Origin: Dehalogenimonas sp. THU2
GTDB taxonomy: Bacteria; Chloroflexota; Dehalococcoidia; Dehalococcoidales; Dehalococcoidaceae
Reading direction: 5' to 3'
Length of the DNA: 64,000 nucleotides
NCBI RefSeq assembly: GCF_039749495.1
Contig: NZ_JBDLLU010000001.1
Span: 1-64,000, forward strand
Positions 6,180-22,528 of the stretch are shown here, one piece after another (positions within the stretch are counted from its first letter, which is position 1; the number at the start of each line of letters is the position of its first letter). The position numbers and the translations under genes were made by a program. The notes below the pieces were generated by a model. That model ran no database searches. It saw only the letters and a list, made by a program, of their open reading frames with translations, and had not been told where the DNA came from.

Positions 6180-6783
6180 CCTGCTGCCATCCCAGGGCTC
6201 CGGCCCAGGCTAGAACGATGTAGAGTACGCTCCGGCCGAGGAAGCAGGCGATAAAGAATTTGCGCGCCGGAAATCGCATCACCCCGGCTGTGATACCGGC
6301 AACGTCGAACATGAGCGGCGCCGCCGACAGCCCGAAGATGGCCCACACGCCGAACCGGTCCAACCAGTGATGAACGCGGATATACCACTTATGGTGCTGT
6401 GGCACCACCGCCCGGCCGGAGTATCCGGCCAGATACCCGGTCATCTCACCGACAGCCGCACCGAGCGCGGCGGCCAGGCCGACGAGGGTAGGCGATGGCA
6501 ATGTAGCGCCCAGAGCCGCCAGGACCAAAAAGTTCCCTGCCGGCAGCACCACCGTGGCGTTGAGGATGGCGCTGATAACGAAGGCACCGACATAGCCGTA
6601 CTCTTTCAAACTCTCGACGAGGTCAGGGTTGGCGTTGTAAATGTATAACACGGCGGCTACGATGGCGATGACGAAAACGATGGAAAGAATAGGCAGAAAT
6701 CGCCGCTGCACCCAGCCGCCGGTGGGGACGATGTGCTCATCGGAATTGGGGGGTTGACCGTTTGGGGTGGGGTTATTTACCAT
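6157..6783 (-). CDS. DedA/VTT-family membrane protein
   Basis: 208 residues with 4-5 hydrophobic segments. A cytoplasmic N-terminal tail of about 28 residues precedes TM1. The middle contains LGAAVGEMTGYLAGYSGR, a form of the G-x-x-x-G-Y motif of the VTT (SNARE-associated Golgi/DedA) domain, and a C-terminal RFPARKFFIACFLGRSVLY helix. Bacterial homologues take part in membrane homeostasis and lipid-carrier flipping. The gene is convergent with the MFS gene and lies just left of tRNA-Glu. Confidence 0.8.
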   Translation of the reverse strand: MVNNPTPNGQPPNSDEHIVPTGGWVQRRFLPILSIVFVIAIVAAVLYIYNANPDLVESLKEYGYVGAFVISAILNATVVLPAGNFLVLAALGATLPSPTLVGLAAALGAAVGEMTGYLAGYSGRAVVPQHHKWYIRVHHWLDRFGVWAIFGLSAAPLMFDVAGITAGVMRFPARKFFIACFLGRSVLYIVLAWAGALGWQQVIDWLAA

Positions 6784-6873
6784 CGTGGGCTATTTTAGCA
6801 TATCGGCGGCGGGCTTACTCCGGCCGACGTTGTCAAGCTTCCGGGCTTTTGCTATACTTCAATGGTTTTCCGC

Positions 6874-6946
6874 GCCCCCATCGTCTAGTGGCCTAGGACA
6901 ACGGCCTTTCACGCCGTCAACAGGGATTCGAATTCCCTTGGGGGTA
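6874..6946 (+). tRNA. tRNA-Glu (anticodon TTC)
   Basis: The cloverleaf can be drawn by hand. The 7-bp acceptor stem GCCCCCA/TGGGGGT includes a terminal G-T pair. The 5-bp anticodon stem is ACGGC/GCCGT and encloses a 7-base loop with TTC at 6908-6910. The T arm is AGGGATTCGAATTCCCT. The discriminator is A6946, and CCA is not encoded. The identity is Glu. Confidence 0.95.
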
Positions 6947-7013
6947 CTCTAAATCTTCCTCTCTCGGAATATGATGTTCCATGACTGCTTCCAAGCCCCA
7001 CACCAACGTCCTG

Positions 7014-10000
7014 TCATGTTCGCGACAGCAATTTGTTGACCTTATCAAGAAACTCCATCCGGTCAAATGGTTTGACGATATAAGGAATGTTATGAGTATT
7101 GAGGTACTCTCTGGTTACCAGATCCGAGGTATCCCCTGTCAGGAACATCACCCGGTCAGCCATATGCACCCATCTTTGTTTGACCTGGTTATAAAATTCG
7201 ATGCCGCTCATCCCCGGCATTCGGATGTCTAAAATAATGAAATCGTAGCTGTTTTCTGTCAACCTTTCCAATCCTAAAAGGGGATCATGACACACCGTTA
7301 CCTCATGCCCAAAGCGATTCAATATGGCCTTGACGAGTTCCCCCACGGTTGGTTCGTCATCAACTATTAGTATCTGCGCTTTATTAATTACATGGTGAGT
7401 ATTGACCGACTCAGCCTCGACAACGGGCAATGCGACCGACTCCACGATGGGCAATTCAACAATGAAGGCTGCCCCCTCACCCTCCCTGCTTTCCACGTTG
7501 ATGGTGCCGCCATGTTCACGGATGATACCCAAAGATAACGATAGACCTAAACCGGTGCCTTCTCCTGGGTCTTTGGTTGTAAAAAAAGGTTGGAACAATT
7601 TACGCATAATTTCATCGGACATTCCCGGTCCATCATCAGTTATTGAAATGCGGATATTCCCGTTCATCCTCTCTGTTTTGACGACCAATTTGCCCTTATC
7701 ATGCGCTTTTTTCATAGCATGTTCGGCGTTGACAATCAAATTCAAAAACACCTGTTGTAGCTGACCGGCGTCAGCCATAACCCAGGGTAGATCCGGCGCA
7801 TAATCTTTTACCACTTCGATATTGGCTGTCTTCAAAACATAACTTCTAAGTTCCAGGGTGTTATCCAACAGCTCTTCAATAGAAACTGCGCTTTTCACCG
7901 GCTTGGCTTGTCTGGCAAAAGTCAGCATGCGTCTGACGATATCTTTTACCCGCTGAGAACCGGCATTGATGATGGTCAATTCTTCTTTCATGTCATCGGG
8001 AATGTTCGTGCGACCCAGAAGAAGTTCAGAAAATCCAATAACGCCGGTCAATGGATTATTAATCTCATGGGCAATGCCGGCGGCCATTTCGCCGACCGCC
8101 GCCAGCCGTGAGGCCATCTCAGCTTTATCCCGAAGTTGCTGCTGTTCTGCCTCCGATTGTTTCTTATCGGTAATATCCTGGACGATACCCGATAGGATTA
8201 CCGGTTTGCCGTTATCGTCGAGTATCAGTTCACCCGCCTCGGCCCAGACGGTACGAACAACACCGTCAGGCCGGATTATCCGATATTCCAGAGGAATCGG
8301 ATTTTTATCTTTGAGGACAGCCAAGTTTGACGCTTCGACTGCAGCCTGGTCATCGGGATGAATTGCCGCCGCAATAACGTCGGCTAAATCTCCTGAAAAG
8401 CTGTCTTTGGCGATGCCGAATATGCGGAACATCTCGTCCGACCATTCCAGGCGGTTTTCCCGGATGTGCCATACCCAGCTTCCCAAATGAGCCATTGACT
8501 GGGCTTTATTCAATTGTTCTGTTGACTCAAGAAGCCTGGTTTCCGCCTCTTTGCGTTCAGTGATGTCCGTTGCGGCGGAGAGCCCGCCGATGACTTTTCC
8601 TTGACTATCTTTCAAAGAGCGGCACCACCAGGCAAGCAAACGTTTTGCCCCATCTTTCCGCCTTTGCCAGCTTTCGATATACACATTATTCTCGGTGCCA
8701 TCAAAAACCGGTTGTACTTTTTCATAGGTGGCCTGTTCCCCTTCAAAGTAGTACGAGGCTTCTTTGCCGACAGCATCATCGCCGAAGAAATCCAGCCCGG
8801 CTTGATTCGCCCAGGTGTAGACCTTGTCGTTATCGACCTCCATAATGATGTCCGGTACGGCCGACAGGATGGTTGACTGGTGAACAGATATCTCCAGTAA
8901 TTCCGTTTCCGCGTGCTTCCGTTCCGATATATCTTTGATGATGTGCACGGAACCAGTCAATTGCCCTTCGGCACCAAAGATGGGCGAGGAAGTGGCTTCA
9001 ACCCAGATCTTCAGTTTCTTGTCAAAATACTCGCTTGACTCTACTTTTTTGGAGGCTATGGTTCGGGCATGGGGACACATCGGGTGCGGCTGGTTCATGG
9101 CATGTATAACTTCATAACAGTGTTGGCCGATAAGTACTTGTGGGGTTTCACCGAGCTTCTTGGCGAAGGCTTGATTGACTCTGACTATTTTATGGTCGGC
9201 ATCAACAATGGCTACCATGTCGGTGATGGAATCAAAGGTTGAACGCCATTCTTCAGCGGCGTCCGATAATTTTTTTTGAGCCAACAGCCTGTCAGATGCC
9301 TCTTTCTGAAGTTCATCACGCGATACCAGGGTAGCTTGTAACTGCGCAGTCATATCCTGAAAGGCAACGGCTAATATCCCTGTTTCATCAGAACTACGGC
9401 TACCAAGTGGTGTATTGAAATTTCCCCGCCCAATTTCCCGGGCGGAACGGGTAAGTTTGCGTATCGGCCGGGTGATGCTGAAAGCTAGAAAGGCAGCTAT
9501 TAAGGCGGCGATACCGCCGGTGACAGTGGCGGTAAGCACGGCCTGGCGATTCAGCACTGAAATCTGTTCAGTTATTACCGATAACGAGGTGCTGACCAGC
9601 ACACCCAGCGGCAGATCGGATAACGGGAAAAAGCTTACCAGCCCTGATGGATTGCCCTGGACGGAAGTTTCAATATTTCCAGATAAACCTGATCTCATGA
9701 GACCAATTGCTTCCAGATACTCAGTTTCAAATGGCTTCATGATGTAAGATTTTTCAGAGTCAGCGGTAACGATTCCAGATCGGAGATCAATGATGGTTGA
9801 ATGATGGGTGTGAGAATCATCTAAATTCAACGCCGATATCAGCCCATCGAGGGTAATATCGCCGCTCAGGATGGCTATTAGATCGCCGGACCCATTGATT
9901 ATCGGCACTGCGCAAGGAGTTATGGGACTGCCGGTAACACGGGAAATAAGAGGGACACTCAGTTCCGGCATACCGGTAGATACGACGGCATTATACCAAT

Positions 10001-14381: not shown

Positions 14382-14613
14382 CTAATTATCAAGCGCCTGG
14401 TCGGTCACGATCTGCTTGAAACGGCGGTTTTCATCCTCCAGACTTTTAAGCTGTTTAAGCTCACTGACCGAAAGACCTGCATATTTGGCTTTCCATTTCT
14501 TGTAAGTGGCGTCATTGACTTTGTATTTACGGCATACTCGCCGATCTTTGCCCCGGCTTTGGTTCCTTGAGTACAGTGATGATCTGCTCTTCGGTGAATT
14601 TTTTCCTAATCAA
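14382..14613 (-). pseudogene. IS3-type transposase OrfA remnant, frameshifted
   Basis: Translation of the minus strand from a TTG at 14613 gives KKFTEEQIITVLKE, the start of IS3-family OrfA. After PGAKIGEY the frame shifts, and the second half reads CRKYKVNDATYKKWKAKYAG, then LEDENRRFKQIVTDQALDN and a stop at 14382. The order and wording match OrfA helix-turn-helix plus leucine-zipper segments, but at least one frameshift separates the halves and OrfB is absent. It is a dead insertion-sequence fragment sitting downstream of the rdhA1 gene. Confidence 0.75.
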
Positions 14614-14740
14614 TTGAGCCCTCCGTGAACACTTAATTTTAGCGGAGGACTCTACTTCTCGGCGATACAAATTATTGGGGGAGGGTCAGCCGGACCAACT
14701 ATTCGTCAATGTTCCAGATTGGATATCAATAGCAAGACAA

Positions 14741-14798: not shown

Positions 14799-16199
14799 TT
14801 AGATTTTAGAATCAAACCCGAACATGGGCTGTTTCTTTAGATCCCACCAAGTCTCAGGATCACGGTTATCGTAGTTGTAGCCGAAAGCCTGATCCATATT
14901 TGTAAAAAACGAATTGAATGCGCTCGTAGTCGCTACTGTAGCTTTGATTACATCGTGGATACTCGCAGAGTTTTTCTTGGCGAATACACATGTGGCTACA
15001 CAAATAGAACACAAACTAGTAGCCTCAAACCAGTAACTTCGGCATTTGATGCCATCGCAGTGAAACGCCTTCTTACCGGGATGGTTGCCGGCGTATTTTG
15101 TATCCCATGAAATGGTGTCATTCGGGTCAAGAGCACCTGATGGACAGTGGCTGGCGCATAGTGCGCACGTTTGGCAAAACTTCCAGATACCAGCGTCGAT
15201 AGGTTTGTCTGGAGCAAGTGGTAGATCCGTTACTATGCTTCCAAGTCTTGCCATTGTGCCGTACTCCGGCATAATACATTGACCCAATCTACCTTGTTCT
15301 CCCAAACCACTTACTACGGCCAAAGCCGGGTTAATATTCAGATTATTAACGAATTGGTAACTTCCAAGTCCTTGGTATCCCAGCATGCGCACGAACCGTT
15401 GCGCCCTGATCTGGAATAATGTGCTCAAAGAGTAGGATAGGGCAGTGGTTGCGTCTCCTAGCAGCGTAGGCGCCCTTTTGTTCATTTCTTCTGACATTGG
15501 CAGGGAAAATACGATTGCATATTTGCATTTGTTGGGAACTACTCTTTTCTTATCGGTTTCGTAGGCCTCTTCAACGTCTTCGAATTCGATATTTTTTCCG
15601 TCCCAGTCAATACCATCAACTAATTTCCGATGATTTTGGTCTAATTCCACAATTGAAACTGTGCCGGCGCCGAGGAAACGAAACGCCTTTCTGATAACTG
15701 CAGAACTCTCTTCCGGGCTAGCTTGCCAGATAGGGACGCCTAAATCGGATGGCTTTCCCATTCCGTAAGGGGTGGCAGTGGTATCACCCAAGAAGTCATG
15801 AGAATACCCTACCTGCCATCCATATGCTGCGGCATCAAAAAGGGCGTAATCTTTCAGTGTGTATCCGGATTTATTTTCTAAGATCCAATTCTTCCGGTCT
15901 TCTTTTTGTTTTGCTCCCTGTTGTTTGGCCTTATCGGCACCTACGTATTTACCATAAGAGACTTGTGGGATTTTAGTTGCATCGAAACGTTCTACCATAC
16001 TCCAATCGATTTCTACGGTTGGGATCTCAACTTCTTTTACCCACCAATCACGTTTGGCATCATCGGTACTTGTCGACAACAGGTCATCCAGGCCATTAAT
16101 AGCCGGGTTTAATAACGCCGCAGTCCCCAATCCGGTCCCGACCAAGCCAAGACTTTTCATAAAATCGCGGCGGCTCAACGTTGAGTGGAAATTTGCCAT
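14799..16199 (-). CDS. rdhA: Reductive dehalogenase catalytic subunit, orphan (rdhA1)
   Basis: 466 residues counted from ATG16199, which has GGAGG 5 bases upstream; a TTG at 16211 overlaps that ribosome-binding site. A Tat signal SRRDFMKSLGLVGTGLG is followed by the corrinoid-binding region and two iron-sulfur motifs: CQTCALCASHCP and, further on, a Cys at GIKC followed by CSICVATC. RdhA enzymes are Tat-exported, corrinoid and two [4Fe-4S] cluster enzymes that remove halogen from organohalides, as terminal reductases of the respiratory chain. The substrate cannot be read from sequence. No rdhB follows; downstream are a 40-bp palindrome and an IS remnant. A regulator gene set lies directly upstream on the same strand. 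Confidence 0.95.
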   Translation of the reverse strand: MANFHSTLSRRDFMKSLGLVGTGLGTAALLNPAINGLDDLLSTSTDDAKRDWWVKEVEIPTVEIDWSMVERFDATKIPQVSYGKYVGADKAKQQGAKQKEDRKNWILENKSGYTLKDYALFDAAAYGWQVGYSHDFLGDTTATPYGMGKPSDLGVPIWQASPEESSAVIRKAFRFLGAGTVSIVELDQNHRKLVDGIDWDGKNIEFEDVEEAYETDKKRVVPNKCKYAIVFSLPMSEEMNKRAPTLLGDATTALSYSLSTLFQIRAQRFVRMLGYQGLGSYQFVNNLNINPALAVVSGLGEQGRLGQCIMPEYGTMARLGSIVTDLPLAPDKPIDAGIWKFCQTCALCASHCPSGALDPNDTISWDTKYAGNHPGKKAFHCDGIKCRSYWFEATSLCSICVATCVFAKKNSASIHDVIKATVATTSAFNSFFTNMDQAFGYNYDNRDPETWWDLKKQPMFGFDSKI

Positions 16200-16228
16200 T
16201 ACATCCTCCAAGTTCCATTTTTGATTTC

Positions 16229-16297
16229 ATTATAGAAGCAAGGAGGTATCGTTAGGAGTAGTGGTCAGTGCCAATACAGTGATATAGAGTAACTATA
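16229..16297 (-). promoter_or_regulatory. rdhA1 promoter region with candidate regulator site
   Basis: Between the response regulator and rdhA1. A TATAAT box for the minus strand lies at 16229-16234; no good -35 box accompanies it. At 16276-16297 the plus strand reads ACAGTGATATAGAGTAACTA and a few more bases. Near-identical wording occurs upstream of rdhA2 at 20652-20671. CAGTG is also repeated with an 11-bp period (16266 and 16277), the spacing used by OmpR-type regulators on DNA. Confidence 0.45.
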
Positions 16298-16311
16298 AGG
16301 TAATAACAAAA

Positions 16312-16995
16312 CTATGATTTAATCGGAATTATATAACCCAAACCACGGCGGTTCTGGATAATCAAGGGCTTTTCAAAATCCTTTTCAATCTTTTTCCGCA
16401 ACCTTGAGACATAGTTTTTTATATTATCAGTCGCCCCGGGGATGTACTCCCCCCAAAGCATCTCAGCCAACTCGTGGGTACTAATTACGCGACCAGCGTT
16501 TTTAACCAAGTGATATAACAACCTCCCCTCAGTGGAAGTCAGCAATAAGGTTTGGTCGTCAATTTTAATTTCTTGGATTGATGAACCAAAGCCGATGCCA
16601 CCGGCTGATACCGAGAGATCTTCTTCAAGAAATGAGTGGCGCTTCAATGCGGCTTTTAATCTTGCCAACAATTCCATTTGACGGAACGGTTTCTCAATAT
16701 AGTCGTTTGCATCTAAGGAAAAAGCTTTTACCAGGGCATTTTCATCGGTTTTTACTGTAATGATGATGATCGGAACCGTTGAAAAAGCCCGGATCTGTTT
16801 TAATACTTCGTATCCATCTATATCTGGCAAACCTAAGTCCAATAAAATAGCGTCTGGGTTTTGAGTCTCAGCAAGGGTAATCCCGTTTGTCCCGTAGGTG
16901 CTACTAACGATTTTCGAATCCGGCCATGCAAGTTTTAATACCAGTGAGACCGTATCAGTAATCGACATATCATCCTCGATGATTAGGAATTTCAT
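16312..16995 (-). CDS. OmpR/KdpE-type response regulator
   Basis: 227 residues. The receiver domain (1-120) has the acidic pair E7-D8-D9, phospho-acceptor Asp53 (LLDLGLPD), Thr in IIIITVK and Lys in EKPF. A winged-helix DNA-binding domain occupies about 130-227, with LTSTEGRLLYHLVKNAGRV and the recognition helix region NIKNYVSRLRKKIE. The start codon overlaps the stop of the upstream kinase (ATGA), so the pair is translationally coupled. The rdhA1 gene begins about 110 bp downstream, making it the natural target. The 11-bp CAGTG repeat in that gap suits an OmpR-type dimer. Confidence 0.93.
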   Translation of the reverse strand: MKFLIIEDDMSITDTVSLVLKLAWPDSKIVSSTYGTNGITLAETQNPDAILLDLGLPDIDGYEVLKQIRAFSTVPIIIITVKTDENALVKAFSLDANDYIEKPFRQMELLARLKAALKRHSFLEEDLSVSAGGIGFGSSIQEIKIDDQTLLLTSTEGRLLYHLVKNAGRVISTHELAEMLWGEYIPGATDNIKNYVSRLRKKIEKDFEKPLIIQNRRGLGYIIPIKS

Positions 16996-18758
16996 TTTGT
17001 CGCTCCTTGCCGACTATTAACAGGGATAGAGAATTGGAATGAACAGCCTTTTTGGTATCGACCATTTAACCATATCCTACCGCCATGTTTTTCGATGATC
17101 ATTTTGGAAAGCGCAAGTCCCAAGCCAAGGCCACTAAGACGGTTGTTAGGAGCACGTTTATATGGATCGAAAATATTATTTTGGTTTGATTTAGGAATAC
17201 CCTTGCCTGTGTCGCGTACCGTGGTGACGATATCATCCTTTCTCACATCAGTCACGATTGTAATCGTGGTGTTCACTCCTGAATATTTGATAGCATTATC
17301 AACCAGGTTGGTGATTACTTCTTTGATCCTTCGTCGGTCTGCTAGAATTAATGGAGTGTCAGGAGATAATTGGGTGGTAATTGATTGTTGATTGTTAGTT
17401 GCCTTGGATGTAAGAAATGCTGTAACTTCCTTGATTACCTCATTGATATTCATTTCCTCGGTGTCCAGAGTTAATAGCCCAACTTCGCCTCTGGCCAGGT
17501 CGAGCAATTCGTCTATTCTAAAACATAATTCATTGGCACCAATCTTGATCTGCTCTAAGAGAAGCTGATAATTAGGTTCCTCTACAATATTAGCCAAAGT
17601 ATCACTCGCTAGGATTATCGGAGTCAGGGGAGTTTTTAGTTCGTGGACCAGGGCGTTGGTAAAATGAATACGACGCTTGATTTCTTTTTCCAATGCCGCT
17701 CGTAAATCCACCTCTTTTCTAAGAGCCTTTTTAAGTTCCTCTTCGTTCTTCTTCCAATCGGTTATATCTTCAAGTTTTCCGATCAAACTGGGTTGTATCG
17801 ACCCATCCTTATAATACTTGGGGTATAAGCTTTCTCTTATCCAGATGGAGTCCCCGTTTTTTTTAAGCGACTCATATTCAACTGAATAAGGTAACTGAAT
17901 ACCTTGAGCAAGGCACTTCGAAATGTATGAGTACCTGGATTCAGTGACGGATTGGTATACTTGGCTATCTTTGTAATATCCGTTACCCGGTCCGGCCAGG
18001 AATGACTGGATAAATTCATCGGTAGTGTAGCCTAACAAACTTCGAATTCTTGGACTGACAAACGTTATGTCTTTAGTAACGACATTAATCTTGTAAAATA
18101 CTTCCTTTTCATAAACGCCCTTGAACATCGATTGAAGCTTATTGGTCGGGCTATTGCGTTGAGGGTTCGGTTGCGCACCGCCTTGTAACTCGTCTATCGA
18201 TTTGTTGATTAATGACCTGAAGCTAGTCATATCAACATTTGTAATTTCGTATGGCACATTGAATGCTGAAGCGAAAGTAGCCACGTCAGATTCATGGGGT
18301 TTTTCAGATTCAAATCGACATGCAAGTATCTTTTTGGTTCCACATGCCTTAATCATGTTACTGTCTTCTGAGAAGGCACCATATGACACGAACACCTCAT
18401 TTTTCCATTTGGTACACAGGGCATCCTTTAACAGCCAGTACCCTTCTGAAATGTATTCTTGGGTTTTCTCTTTACCCAATAACATTTCCCAACAGTTGCC
18501 GCCTTTGATTTTGGTTATCTGATTGGAATAATGTTTCAAGATATGTTCGATTTCAGAATGGCAAAATCCGTAAATTAAAAGCGTTCGATCGTTTTCTAAA
18601 CATGATTGTTCAAAGACGTGTTTTATCAGTTCAGGAGAAATGGTGAACATACAGGATGGCACCAACTGATAAAGACGGTAATCTTTTCTGGTCTGCAGGG
18701 TACTTTTGACCTGATCCGCTATTGATGAACAAGTAATCATGCCGATACTGGTAGCCAT
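16992..18758 (-). CDS. Histidine kinase with N-terminal DUF1638-like domain and PAS
   Basis: 588 residues, no membrane span, so cytoplasmic. Residues about 1-195 resemble DUF1638: an ITC start, LIYGFCHSEIEHIL (about 61-74), GNCWEMLLGK (about 87-96) and EGYWLLKDALCTKW (105-118), in the order seen in that family. DUF1638 proteins are, as I recall, often encoded near corrinoid methyltransferase systems. A PAS domain follows (about 215-335), then HisKA with NALVHELKTPLTP (His372) and HATPase with NLVDNAIKYS, RDTGKGI and LGLGLAL. It overlaps the B12-binding-like gene upstream by 22 bp and the regulator downstream by 4 bp. A corrinoid-related signal is inference; the DUF1638 call is by pattern only. 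Confidence 0.8.
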   Translation of the reverse strand: MATSIGMITCSSIADQVKSTLQTRKDYRLYQLVPSCMFTISPELIKHVFEQSCLENDRTLLIYGFCHSEIEHILKHYSNQITKIKGGNCWEMLLGKEKTQEYISEGYWLLKDALCTKWKNEVFVSYGAFSEDSNMIKACGTKKILACRFESEKPHESDVATFASAFNVPYEITNVDMTSFRSLINKSIDELQGGAQPNPQRNSPTNKLQSMFKGVYEKEVFYKINVVTKDITFVSPRIRSLLGYTTDEFIQSFLAGPGNGYYKDSQVYQSVTESRYSYISKCLAQGIQLPYSVEYESLKKNGDSIWIRESLYPKYYKDGSIQPSLIGKLEDITDWKKNEEELKKALRKEVDLRAALEKEIKRRIHFTNALVHELKTPLTPIILASDTLANIVEEPNYQLLLEQIKIGANELCFRIDELLDLARGEVGLLTLDTEEMNINEVIKEVTAFLTSKATNNQQSITTQLSPDTPLILADRRRIKEVITNLVDNAIKYSGVNTTITIVTDVRKDDIVTTVRDTGKGIPKSNQNNIFDPYKRAPNNRLSGLGLGLALSKMIIEKHGGRIWLNGRYQKGCSFQFSIPVNSRQGATK

Positions 18759-19345
18759 CGTTCACTCCCACTCTCAACGTGTTTAAGCAGCAAACGTAAG
18801 CTTGAAGGGAAATGGAAAAACGGAAGGTGATCTTTCTCCTCGCTGCTACGTTTAAATACTATGCCTCCCGCAAATATCTTGGTATTCAATGCCTTGAGTG
18901 CGCTCCCTCTGGTTTTCACCATATCAATGTAGTTCAACGCGGAAAAACTGAAAATGATAACTTTTGGGGTCTCCTTTTCCCATATAGAAATCGTATTATC
19001 CAGTTCATCTTGATCCTTAATCCCAACCAGGTAGGTCTGTAAATTGTTGCTCCTTAGATAAACGTCAACTAATAAGGCACCAATAGTTTGTAGTTCTGAA
19101 AAATAGCAAATGGGAATAGGTTCGTTGTTTTTGTAGTCGATATCCAGTTGGCTCAGTGCTTTATCACACATACTTATGATCGAATATACGTGAGATGGCC
19201 TTACTTCGTTAGCATCCCAGGCCTTGATTAGTTTTTCGATAAGTCGTCTGACCTGAACCGTGTTATTGAACTCGCTGTTGTTTCGAGAGGGATGCCCTTC
19301 ATAACACCAATCCCAATCATTTTTGTTGTTGGCTAACTCGAACAT
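18737..19345 (-). CDS. B12-binding-like sensor protein lacking the base-off histidine
   Basis: 202 residues. Residues about 30-70 form helices like the cap of cobalamin sensor modules. Residues about 76-190 have the Rossmann-like B12-binding pattern: ICYFSELQTIGALLVDVYL, then YLVG, then PKVIIFSFSA, then IFAGGIVF. In cobalamin-binding sensors the first motif is usually GE-x-H-x-IG, with His as lower axial ligand. Here it is SELQTIG, with Gln86 in place of His. So the protein could bind corrinoid base-on, bind another tetrapyrrole, or have lost binding. It overlaps the following kinase gene by 22 bp and is probably part of the same signalling unit upstream of rdhA1. Confidence 0.7.
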   Translation of the reverse strand: MFELANNKNDWDWCYEGHPSRNNSEFNNTVQVRRLIEKLIKAWDANEVRPSHVYSIISMCDKALSQLDIDYKNNEPIPICYFSELQTIGALLVDVYLRSNNLQTYLVGIKDQDELDNTISIWEKETPKVIIFSFSALNYIDMVKTRGSALKALNTKIFAGGIVFKRSSEEKDHLPFFHFPSSLRLLLKHVESGSERWLPVSA

Positions 19346-19439
19346 CTCATTTACCCCGCTACTTGATTATACGCCTATTATCATGGAGTAATCGGTGTCT
19401 GTGAATAACTGAACGGTAACATTAAGTGACGGAAGGGTA

Positions 19440-20357
19440 TCATGGAGATTCCTTCCTGACAAACCGGATTGATAACCAAAAGTAAAATATAAAACCGACA
19501 ATCATCGCGGTGATAGGTGGTATCGCTGCTATTGGTCCAAACAGCATATACGTTATAGCGCTGGCACCGGCCCATTTTTTCATGGTCCCGAATAACATAA
19601 ACACAATGGCTTCCGAGTGTTCATACTTGAGTGCTAGGCTCATACGGTATATCAATTCACCCAAGAGAAAAATTGTGATGAAGGCAACCAACAATGACAC
19701 CCCAGAATATTCGGGGAAAGCAAAAAGAGTATCTCTATTAATTCCGATAAGACTGAAAATTACTATTGCTAGGCACCAATTAATTATTTTACTACCGGAG
19801 GCCTGCGTCTTCTTGTACAGAAGAGTTTTACGATAAAACCTTGAAAGCACTAAAGGTAAAACAATGATCTGGCCAATCAAAATAAATAGACCTTGATTAT
19901 CGTAACCATGGCCAAAAAACATGAATAATGAAACGGGCAAGATAACAATTGAGGCAAGATATCCAAATGTTGTCCCCAGATATGCCAGAGTAACGTTTGA
20001 ACCTAGGTTGTAACTAAAAGGAGGGATGGTCATCGATGGAGGTACTGTAGCTAAGACAACAAACCCAGCTCTTAAAAGAGTATCATCACTTAAGAGGTGT
20101 CCCAACGAGATGTTCACGCCGCCTAGAACAATAAAATTGAACAGGAGAACAAGAAGACTTGGGATTATGATTGACTTCAGATTATAAAAATGTTTAGTCT
20201 CAAGCCGTGTTAGGGAAATGGTCATTGCGAGAACAAGCAATGGGATAATCCAGGACTTAAATAATTGTGAAAGAGGATTTCCCAAGAGACCCAATAGGAT
20301 GGCTGCCACAAGAATAAAATTGTGTTGATCACTTAGGAGAGATTTCAGTTTTGCCAT
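19440..20357 (-). CDS. BASS-type (bile acid:sodium symporter-like) membrane transporter
   Basis: 305 residues with 9-10 hydrophobic segments and no signal peptide. The pattern, with VVLATVPPSMTIPPFSYNLG in the first half and FGTMKKWAGASAI in the second, matches the bile acid:sodium symporter/arsenite permease-like fold with two crossing unwound helices. Family members move organic anions. An AEC-type carrier is the alternative. It lies 94 bp upstream of the B12-binding-like gene on the same strand, so it may be part of the rdhA1-associated unit, but it could also have its own promoter. The substrate is unknown. Confidence 0.6.
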   Translation of the reverse strand: MAKLKSLLSDQHNFILVAAILLGLLGNPLSQLFKSWIIPLLVLAMTISLTRLETKHFYNLKSIIIPSLLVLLFNFIVLGGVNISLGHLLSDDTLLRAGFVVLATVPPSMTIPPFSYNLGSNVTLAYLGTTFGYLASIVILPVSLFMFFGHGYDNQGLFILIGQIIVLPLVLSRFYRKTLLYKKTQASGSKIINWCLAIVIFSLIGINRDTLFAFPEYSGVSLLVAFITIFLLGELIYRMSLALKYEHSEAIVFMLFGTMKKWAGASAITYMLFGPIAAIPPITAMIVGFIFYFWLSIRFVRKESP

Positions 20358-20788
20358 GGTTCAACTGGTTTACCTTTTGGCTGGAGTCTAGGAATTATAA
20401 AGCCAAGTTGACCAAGTATAATCCGTATAGCCAGCAAAATGCTAGGATCGACCATTGGGAGGAACCGACAGACAGGAGATTGAACCCAATAGTCTAAGGA
20501 CGAATCTTTTATTCTACGGTAAACTGGTTCAAGAATATGATAGGCTGTCCCTCCTGGGGTTTATCAAGCCATCCAGTTAACAACTTGAGTGTAAGAAGTA
20601 ATAAAAAATTGCCAAGGTACTAATACTTTAGTACGATGCTATTTTGAATACACAGTGATACAGTAACGATATAATAAAATAGTATTACAAACAGAAATAT
20701 GACAGGAGGATGCTTATAAACTGTTGACCCTCCGGGAAAGTCCGGAGACCCACGGAAAAATCAGAATAAAATCTAAGAGGTACCGCGT
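20358..20788. promoter_or_regulatory. Divergent control region between the transporter and rdhA2
   Basis: 431 bp without a gene. Elements for rdhA2 are: a 7-bp dyad GTACTAA-TACT-TTAGTAC at 20617-20634; TTGAAT at 20644-20649 with TATAAT at 20670-20675 (20-bp spacing) or GATATA at 20668-20673 (18-bp spacing); the motif ACAGTGATACAGTAACGATA at 20652-20671, which is shared with rdhA1; a leader hairpin CTCCGG/CCGGAG at 20730-20747; and AGAGG shortly before the ATG. An AACTGG/CCAGTT pair around 20525-20580 could form a larger stem. Confidence 0.55.
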
Positions 20789-22198
20789 ATGTCAAAATTT
20801 CACTCAAATGTAAGCCGCAGGGATTTTATGAAAGCCCTGGGATTAACCGGAGCCGGACTTGGCGCTGTTGCTGCGGCGACAGCGCCTGTCTTCCATGATA
20901 TGGATGAGGTGCTATCAACCCCTGACACGGAGTGGAAAAACCCATGGTGGATTAAGGACAAGGAGCATGAAAAACCTACTGTCGAGGTAGATTGGGATGT
21001 GTATCCGGGGTCGGCGGGGCGCGACACGGCATGGAATGACCAACAAATAGCGAATACCATGGCCATAGTCGAAAAGGAATACGGGACCACAGACCTGGAC
21101 ATACTTGAGGCACGATGGGCCCAGCAGAATGTACCGGGAATGTCCTTAAGGGATCGTGCTTTAGAGAATGCGGCCAATTGTTGTAACAGTGGACTCAAGA
21201 GTAGTTGGAAACCAGTATCCTTAGAGGAACTGGGAGTTCCGAAGTGGCAAGGCAGCCCCGAGGAAAATCTTCATATGATGCGGGTAGCCAGTCGATTTTT
21301 TGGTTCCTACGCCTCCGGGGCCGCAGAGCTAAACGACAAAACGTTGCGAGTGATCAAGGCGGGCAGGGGCCCGACCCCCATGAATGTTGTATACACGGAT
21401 ACTGGTGTGTTCAAAAAAACTTCTACAGAAGTCACGATTCCTAATGGTTGGAACTATGCTTTTACCTGGGTCATGCAGCATCCCCAACTCGCGTTATCCA
21501 CCTCCCCCGGCGAAGTGACAAATCCTTATGGCTATTTTTTCTGCACGAACACTGCAGCCAGAATCCGCGCTTTCATCCAGAATCTGGGCTACAGCCAGGC
21601 TGAACCCACGGTTGGGACAGGAGCATTTCCGACACTAACCGGTGTTACGGAAATGACCCGCCAGGGAGCAAACGTAATCGTGCCCAGCCACGGTGCGATG
21701 CCAAGGCGTACCGAGACCGCTCTAACCAACCTGCCGTTAGCCTACTCCCCGCCCATTGACAGCGGTATATACAAATTCTGTCATACATGCAAAAAATGCG
21801 CTGAAACATGCATAACCGGGTCGATAAGTATGGAAGATGAACCTTCGTGGGAAGTAAGGGATAAATACCAGAATATCCCCGGTTTGAAGCACTTCTACTT
21901 TAATTACGCTTCCTGTGGATCCTGGAAGAGCGCATATGGCCCGGGATATTGCGGAATGTGTCTTTCTACTTGCGTTTTCCGCAACTTCAATGAGTCTATG
22001 GTGCACCCGCTCATTCAGTCTGTGGCGGCAACTACACCGATATTCAACGGCTTCTTCAGACAGATGGATGATGTTTTTGGTTTCAGGACTAATCAAATGG
22101 GCAGCAAGGCGCATACTGAAGACGACACTATAGGACAATTCTGGAGAACGATTGGACCCGAGCATGGGTTACTTACGCATTTCGGTTCTCACGAATAA
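20789..22198 (+). CDS. rdhA: Reductive dehalogenase catalytic subunit (rdhA2)
   Basis: 469 residues. The Tat signal is SRRDFMKALGLTGAGLGAV, then an Ala-rich hydrophobic stretch. Two iron-sulfur motifs lie in the C-terminal third: CHTCKKCAETC and, after a Cys at ASCGSW, CGMCLSTC. In both motifs the Pro that often follows the last Cys is replaced (by Ile and Val). The enzyme should be a corrinoid and [4Fe-4S] reductive dehalogenase facing the outside of the membrane. It differs strongly from rdhA1 outside the motifs, so a different substrate range is likely. It is followed by rdhB and a strong terminator, giving a simple rdhAB operon. Confidence 0.96.
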   Translation: MSKFHSNVSRRDFMKALGLTGAGLGAVAAATAPVFHDMDEVLSTPDTEWKNPWWIKDKEHEKPTVEVDWDVYPGSAGRDTAWNDQQIANTMAIVEKEYGTTDLDILEARWAQQNVPGMSLRDRALENAANCCNSGLKSSWKPVSLEELGVPKWQGSPEENLHMMRVASRFFGSYASGAAELNDKTLRVIKAGRGPTPMNVVYTDTGVFKKTSTEVTIPNGWNYAFTWVMQHPQLALSTSPGEVTNPYGYFFCTNTAARIRAFIQNLGYSQAEPTVGTGAFPTLTGVTEMTRQGANVIVPSHGAMPRRTETALTNLPLAYSPPIDSGIYKFCHTCKKCAETCITGSISMEDEPSWEVRDKYQNIPGLKHFYFNYASCGSWKSAYGPGYCGMCLSTCVFRNFNESMVHPLIQSVAATTPIFNGFFRQMDDVFGFRTNQMGSKAHTEDDTIGQFWRTIGPEHGLLTHFGSHE

Positions 22199-22234
22199 CA
22201 ATAGGGGTAAACAAATCAGAAAGGAGTATTCACA

Positions 22235-22528
22235 TTGGATATATTTGCGATCATGGTTGGACTGATTGTCGGTATCGCGGTGATAAGTTTAGTATTCTGG
22301 CTACGCGCCCGAAAAATGACATTGAAATGGTATGAATGGCTTTTGGGATCAATTGGCTTGTTGTTACTTGTTTTTACCATAATTATTATTAGTAGCAGCG
22401 CAAGAACTATTGGTGACCCCACCCTGGCTCGTTGGATGATGGCGGCAGTCATGGGCTTACCGGCGCTCGTTTTATTGGCCGCCGCTTGGTCGATGGTGTG
22501 GCGCCGCATTCGAGGTACTTCTTCTTAA
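22235..22528 (+). CDS. rdhB: Reductive dehalogenase membrane anchor (rdhB)
   Basis: 97 residues with three membrane helices (about 4-23, 35-53 and 66-88), the size and layout of RdhB, which holds RdhA at the outer face of the cytoplasmic membrane. A KWYEWLLGSIGL segment links TM1 and TM2, similar to the W-Y-E-W pattern common in RdhB. The start is TTG at 22235, supported by AAGGAG 8 bases upstream. It follows rdhA2 by 36 bp and is followed by a terminator. Confidence 0.92.
   Translation: MDIFAIMVGLIVGIAVISLVFWLRARKMTLKWYEWLLGSIGLLLLVFTIIIISSSARTIGDPTLARWMMAAVMGLPALVLLAAAWSMVWRRIRGTSS

Follow-up and report, generated by a model that had tools for sequence, protein, structure and literature searches.

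A candidate two-component unit with a B12-like/DUF1638 sensor pair beside a reductive dehalogenase gene in Dehalogenimonas

In a 64-kb stretch of DNA (the window) from a draft genome of 1.84 Mb, three overlapping signaling genes precede the reductive dehalogenase gene rdhA1. With a probability of roughly 0.55, we read them as a two-component unit of the rdhP/rdhS kind, cytoplasmic and self-regulated, that would control rdhA1 and whose two-part sensor would derive from corrinoid methyltransferase systems. One sensor part would be a small B12-binding-like protein, the other the kinase's DUF1638 domain. What soluble kinases beside rdhA sense is a standing question in organohalide respiration. The unit offers concrete targets for it, namely two proteins, four cysteines and two promoter boxes, and thus a lead on what switches on dehalogenase genes in pollutant-respiring bacteria.

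Gene arrangement and protein domains

Five ORFs were confirmed on the minus strand of the window, at the positions claimed in the earlier note: a BASS/SBF-like membrane transporter (19440-20357; 305 aa), a B12-binding-like protein (18737-19345; 202 aa), a cytoplasmic histidine kinase (16992-18758; 588 aa), an OmpR/PhoB-type, rdhP-like response regulator (16312-16995; 227 aa), and rdhA1 (14799-16211), the gene for a reductive dehalogenase catalytic subunit. The claimed overlaps of 22 bp between the B12-like and kinase genes (18737-18758) and of 4 bp between the kinase and regulator genes (16992-16995) were also found. However, the overlapping order described for the whole set holds for the three signaling genes and not for the outer two, as the transporter gene lies 94 bp from the B12-like gene and rdhA1 lies 100 bp from the regulator gene. 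Both gaps contain a candidate regulator box and a TATAAT sequence.

Pfam models assigned DUF1638, PAS_3, HisKA and HATPase_c domains to the kinase, in which no transmembrane-like segment was found, and Response_reg (PF00072) and Trans_reg_C (PF00486) domains, both above cut-off, to the regulator. The DUF1638 sensor domain occupies approximately residues 1-190 of the kinase (18189-18758, minus strand) and scored 43 to 47 bits with PF07796, whose cut-off is 27; the model was matched by all 13 sensor domains compared at E values up to 1. The rdhA1 product scored 287 bits with TIGR02486 (cut-off of 160) and 107 bits with the Dehalogenase model PF13486, and it carries a TAT signal and Fe-S motifs; it is a bona fide RdhA. 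Translation likely starts at the ATG at 16199 rather than at the TTG at 16211.

Conservation beside rdhA and promoter boxes

Among 294 genomes of the class, the B12-like protein was confined to Dehalococcoidaceae. The source genome belongs to one genus of this family, whose sister genus resembles Dehalococcoides. In the 11 Dehalococcoidaceae genomes, a profile search revealed 17 copies of the pair, distributed over 9 genomes. The two genes were directly adjoining in every copy, overlapping in 15 and 1 bp apart in 2. The DUF1638 gene encoded an intact kinase in 14/17 copies (the exceptions being L055, L057, and L058), and the OmpR-type regulator followed in all copies but L057 and L058. An rdhA gene was close to all 17 copies, with start-to-start distances of 0.7 to 5.7 kb for the 16 that could be mapped, while random positions would place only ~1.2 of 16 within 5 kb of rdhA. 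The earlier note had proposed that the sensor pair and the regulator are a unit and that its linkage to rdhA be sought in relatives; this conservation bears the proposal out. The pair was absent from two congeneric genomes that are rich in rdhA genes, and it is therefore dispensable for rdhA control in general.

The exceptional copies are damaged genes. In L057 (6754-8173) and at the same site in L058, the kinase gene is interrupted by an IS3-type transposase immediately behind its DUF1638 part, so we rejected the stand-alone DUF1638 of these loci as a kinase-free version of the sensor. A CRP/FNR-type regulator gene lies upstream of the neighboring rdhA. In L055, from a Dehalococcoides-like genome, the reading frame of the trio's kinase gene is broken (6572-8413).

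A candidate tandem-repeat box, GTTACC-N5-GTTACY with an 11-bp period, was found upstream of the sensor operon (GTTACCGTTCAGTTATT, 19404-19420, minus strand; TATAAT at 19366-19371) and upstream of rdhA1 (ATTACCTTATAGTTACT, 16288-16304, minus strand; TATAAT at 16229-16234). OmpR/PhoB regulators typically recognize tandem sites spaced by roughly one turn of the helix. With one mismatch allowed, the 64-kb window holds three matches against 0.27 expected, the third lying inside rdhA1. At the same stringency, the box occurs within 130 bp upstream of 8/17 trios (~5 of them independent), where it is positioned 62 to 75 bp upstream of the B12-like gene, compared with 9 matches in 4,000 random 130-bp pieces; the strict box was missing upstream of the other 9 trios. 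It was also not present at the promoter of the second rdhA in the window (rdhA2). Across the genome, the pattern was not enriched (12 matches versus 11 for the reversed control) and its remaining matches fall in unrelated genes, so the case for the box rests on its position and we claim no wider regulon. The box thus marks the promoters of the sensor operon and of rdhA1 and recurs in the window only inside rdhA1, which points to one self-regulated unit, and the common promoter box suggests that the regulator may control rdhA1 transcription.

Close homologues of rdhA1 were found once each in L048 and L051, on the same strand and directly after the regulator gene as in the window. Upstream, the three genes have in common a block that contains TTAC-N7-TTAC (period of 11 bp) and a conserved -10 element. 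The box before rdhA1 has no more than one mismatch in the window and L048, and two mismatches in L051. This agreement makes it very improbable that the unit is real but rdhA1 a mere neighbor, the regulator controlling its own operon and genes elsewhere, even though rdhA genes are frequent in the Dehalococcoidaceae genomes examined and the nearest rdhA in several relatives is on the opposite strand or of another subtype.

Possible origin and signal of the sensor pair

The B12-like protein appears to consist of a helical cap and a B12-domain-like fold. It scored 24 bits with PF02310 (E value of 3e-5), under the cut-off of 32, and the model was matched, weakly, by just 4 of 13 such proteins. An hhalign comparison of the 20-member family profile with MtbC-type corrinoid proteins gave a probability of 50 and an E value of 1.6e-4 over residues 35 to 169, which span the cap and the B12 domain; controls with reversed corrinoid proteins, regulators, RdhA, and transporters gave probabilities of 0.1 to 1.6. 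MtaC/MtbC-type corrinoid proteins carry the cobalt-ligating motif DxHxxG, whereas it was found in 0/20 of the B12-like proteins, which keep the GG of the third loop. Because no family member has kept the motif, binding of a cobamide in the usual mode is unlikely. A PDB sequence search returned no relative. The AlphaFold models of the B12-like protein (pLDDT of 50) and of the DUF1638 domain (pLDDT of 36), both from four-row alignments, were too poor for use or to reveal a pocket, and a Foldseek search with the former gave nothing significant.

The DUF1638 domains of the sensors form one clade with a support of 0.99, and Cys10, Cys36, Cys66, and Cys89 are present in 16/16 of them. Stand-alone DUF1638 proteins have the cysteines at positions 66 and 89 in 18/18 cases and that at position 10 in all 16 that are not truncated; the fourth site is mostly His in these proteins but Cys in the sensors. 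Since three cysteines are kept and the fourth site is His or Cys, a metal or redox signal is, on these residues, an equal candidate besides a corrinoid one.

In the class, most stand-alone DUF1638 genes are located between genes for MttB-type methyltransferases and RACo/RamA-like activases. The source genome's own stand-alone DUF1638 protein (L001, 1456-2046, minus strand; G000:C8:56365) is encoded beside a MerR-type regulator. In three genomes of three other lineages (L122, L123, and L124), the gene order is a corrinoid protein with DxHxxG kept, a URO-D-type methyltransferase, DUF1638, and a kinase of the PAS or GAF type; in L124, DUF1638 is joined to PAS domains. The window sensor looks like a derived form of this arrangement, and these three operons are possibly an undescribed class of sensor modules. 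Beyond Dehalococcoidaceae, the pair and a kinase also occur in at least one assembly of Desulfobacterales and two of Neomarinimicrobiota, and the kinases are longer wherever the gene is readable; this spread outside the class is a lower bound, as the collection was scanned with a single peptide pattern. Neither of the two whole Neomarinimicrobiota genomes carrying the pair has an rdhA above cut-off, so the signal need not concern dehalogenation.

The earlier note had read the two sensor parts as pointing to a corrinoid or tetrapyrrole-related signal. This reading is partly supported. The similarity of DUF1638 and the B12-like protein to the DUF1638/corrinoid-protein pair of corrinoid methyltransferase operons backs the corrinoid theme independently; however, the loss of DxHxxG throughout the family and the occurrence of the pair in genomes without rdhA speak against the proposal. 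In Phaeobacter, B12-dependent methionine synthesis requires both a DUF1638 protein and a RamA-like protein, which have phenotypes in common; the DUF1638 gene there adjoins one for a B12-binding cap/domain protein (PMC5764234). DUF1638 is a family with almost no functional data, which gains a second context here.

In the two-component reading, both sensor parts would descend from the corrinoid protein and the DUF1638 partner of corrinoid methyltransferase systems. The B12-like protein and the kinase would be translationally coupled and would assemble into a complex that responds to the state of a cofactor bound to it. This cofactor may be a cobamide that has no histidine ligand from the protein, or a metal or Fe-S site on the four DUF1638 cysteines. 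A change of state would pass through the PAS linker, upon which the kinase would phosphorylate the OmpR-type regulator. The regulator would in turn bind the tandem GTTAC repeats before its own operon and rdhA1, probably activating rather than repressing them. Dehalogenase control would thereby be linked to corrinoid methyl-transfer machinery, a link that matters for these organisms, as they rely on scavenged cobamides. We propose more tentatively that parts of corrinoid methyltransferase systems were recruited as kinase sensor heads, serving as cofactor-state sensors, in several phyla and were rewired to rdhA in Dehalococcoidaceae. If so, cobamide or redox status, and not the organohalide itself, would set rdhA expression in this family.

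The invariant cysteines, the His/Cys exchange relative to stand-alone DUF1638, the missing DxHxxG, and the pairs without rdhA would also fit a metal or redox sensor without any corrinoid, in which the cysteine site holds an Fe-S cluster or another metal and the B12-like protein is a tetrapyrrole-free adaptor. We regard this as rather doubtful, as the B12-like protein has been retained in all copies and is thus likely to have a role, and operons of the ancestral type contain true corrinoid proteins. Direct binding of the halogenated substrate by the PAS domain, or by a degenerate B12-like pocket, appears less probable still. The kinase is soluble, has PAS_3 and is closely linked to rdhA, and the same idea has been stated for the soluble rdhS kinases of Dehalogenimonas (PMC13390414). 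However, the DUF1638 part and its partner protein are conserved beyond dehalogenating lineages, and the PAS domain of the kinase in L061 (Dehalococcoides-like) was under the threshold.

B12-domain folds also serve in signaling in the CarH/LitR and photocobilin light sensors, which bind cobalamin through a histidine ligand and either act on DNA directly or carry a bilin domain; we know of no kinase partner for either. In SCHIC/PpaA-type domains, likened here by description only, a B12-like fold senses with changed ligand use, and to our knowledge no DUF1638 or kinase partner exists. Corrinoid methyltransferase systems (a corrinoid protein, an MttB or URO-D methyltransferase, RamA/RACo, and DUF1638) share with the window unit DUF1638 and, by profile, a probably homologous B12-like protein. 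In contrast, the unit has no methyltransferase or activase, and its DUF1638 is fused to a kinase. In the part of the account of the mec cassette used here, a corrinoid protein is likewise encoded beside a kinase and a regulator in a dehalogenation context, in dichloromethane-degrading bacteria; MecA there has a PocR domain, methyltransferases are present, and that part does not mention DUF1638 (PMC9768040).

Soluble kinases and regulators beside rdhA are known from Dehalococcoides and Dehalogenimonas as rdhP/rdhS, with their signal stated to be unknown (PMC13390414). The window unit is like them in its kinase, which has HisKA and HATPase_c but lacks a transmembrane segment, in the adjacent OmpR-type regulator gene, and in the nearby rdhA. 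The account of rdhP/rdhS, however, makes no mention of DUF1638 or a B12-like partner, both of which are present and conserved in the window unit (PMC13390414). No description of the sensor pair was found in the open-access literature, a scope that leaves most subscription journals outside. The earlier note, which knew of no described system of this make-up, is thus borne out within that literature for the sensor pair but not for the two-component side; only the sensor make-up is new, since the rest is of the known rdhP/rdhS kind.

Transporter and other neighboring genes

The window transporter has hydrophobic segments and matched no Pfam model, whereas its homologues in L049, L050, and L052 scored above the SBF/SBF_like cut-offs. 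A homologue lies within ~5 kb of the trio in L048 to L050, L052, and L053, on either strand. Its inclusion in the module by the earlier note is weakly backed, as its position varies and no box was found at its promoter; it appears loosely associated with the sensor unit.

No rdhB-like ORF for an anchor protein was found downstream of rdhA1 in a scan for small ORFs. The expected place of rdhB, directly downstream of rdhA1 (~14400-14670, minus strand), holds a frame-broken remnant resembling an IS3-type transposase, whose intact counterpart is present in L050 (14655-15737). The second rdhA (20789-22528, plus strand; 469 aa) is divergent from the transporter gene and has a gene for an rdhB-like membrane protein downstream. 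The stretch between the two contains an inverted repeat with a GTACTAA/TTAGTAC core and arms at 20606-20623 and 20628-20645.

Ribonucleotide reductase genes, with several copies per genome, are often near trios and other rdhA genes (L049, 12696-14501; L050, 9460-11241; L052, 4945-6738; L053, 5137-6930; L059, 117-1910). They occur within 10 kb of 8/16 trios versus 18/130 other rdhA genes. We gave this proximity little weight as evidence for a corrinoid signal, as the copies are partly syntenic and their B12 dependence is inferred. Downstream of rdhAB in L054 (11257-15678) are genes for a diphthamide-synthase-like protein, a radical SAM protein, and a tetrapyrrole methylase (PF00590), which are possibly corrinoid-related.
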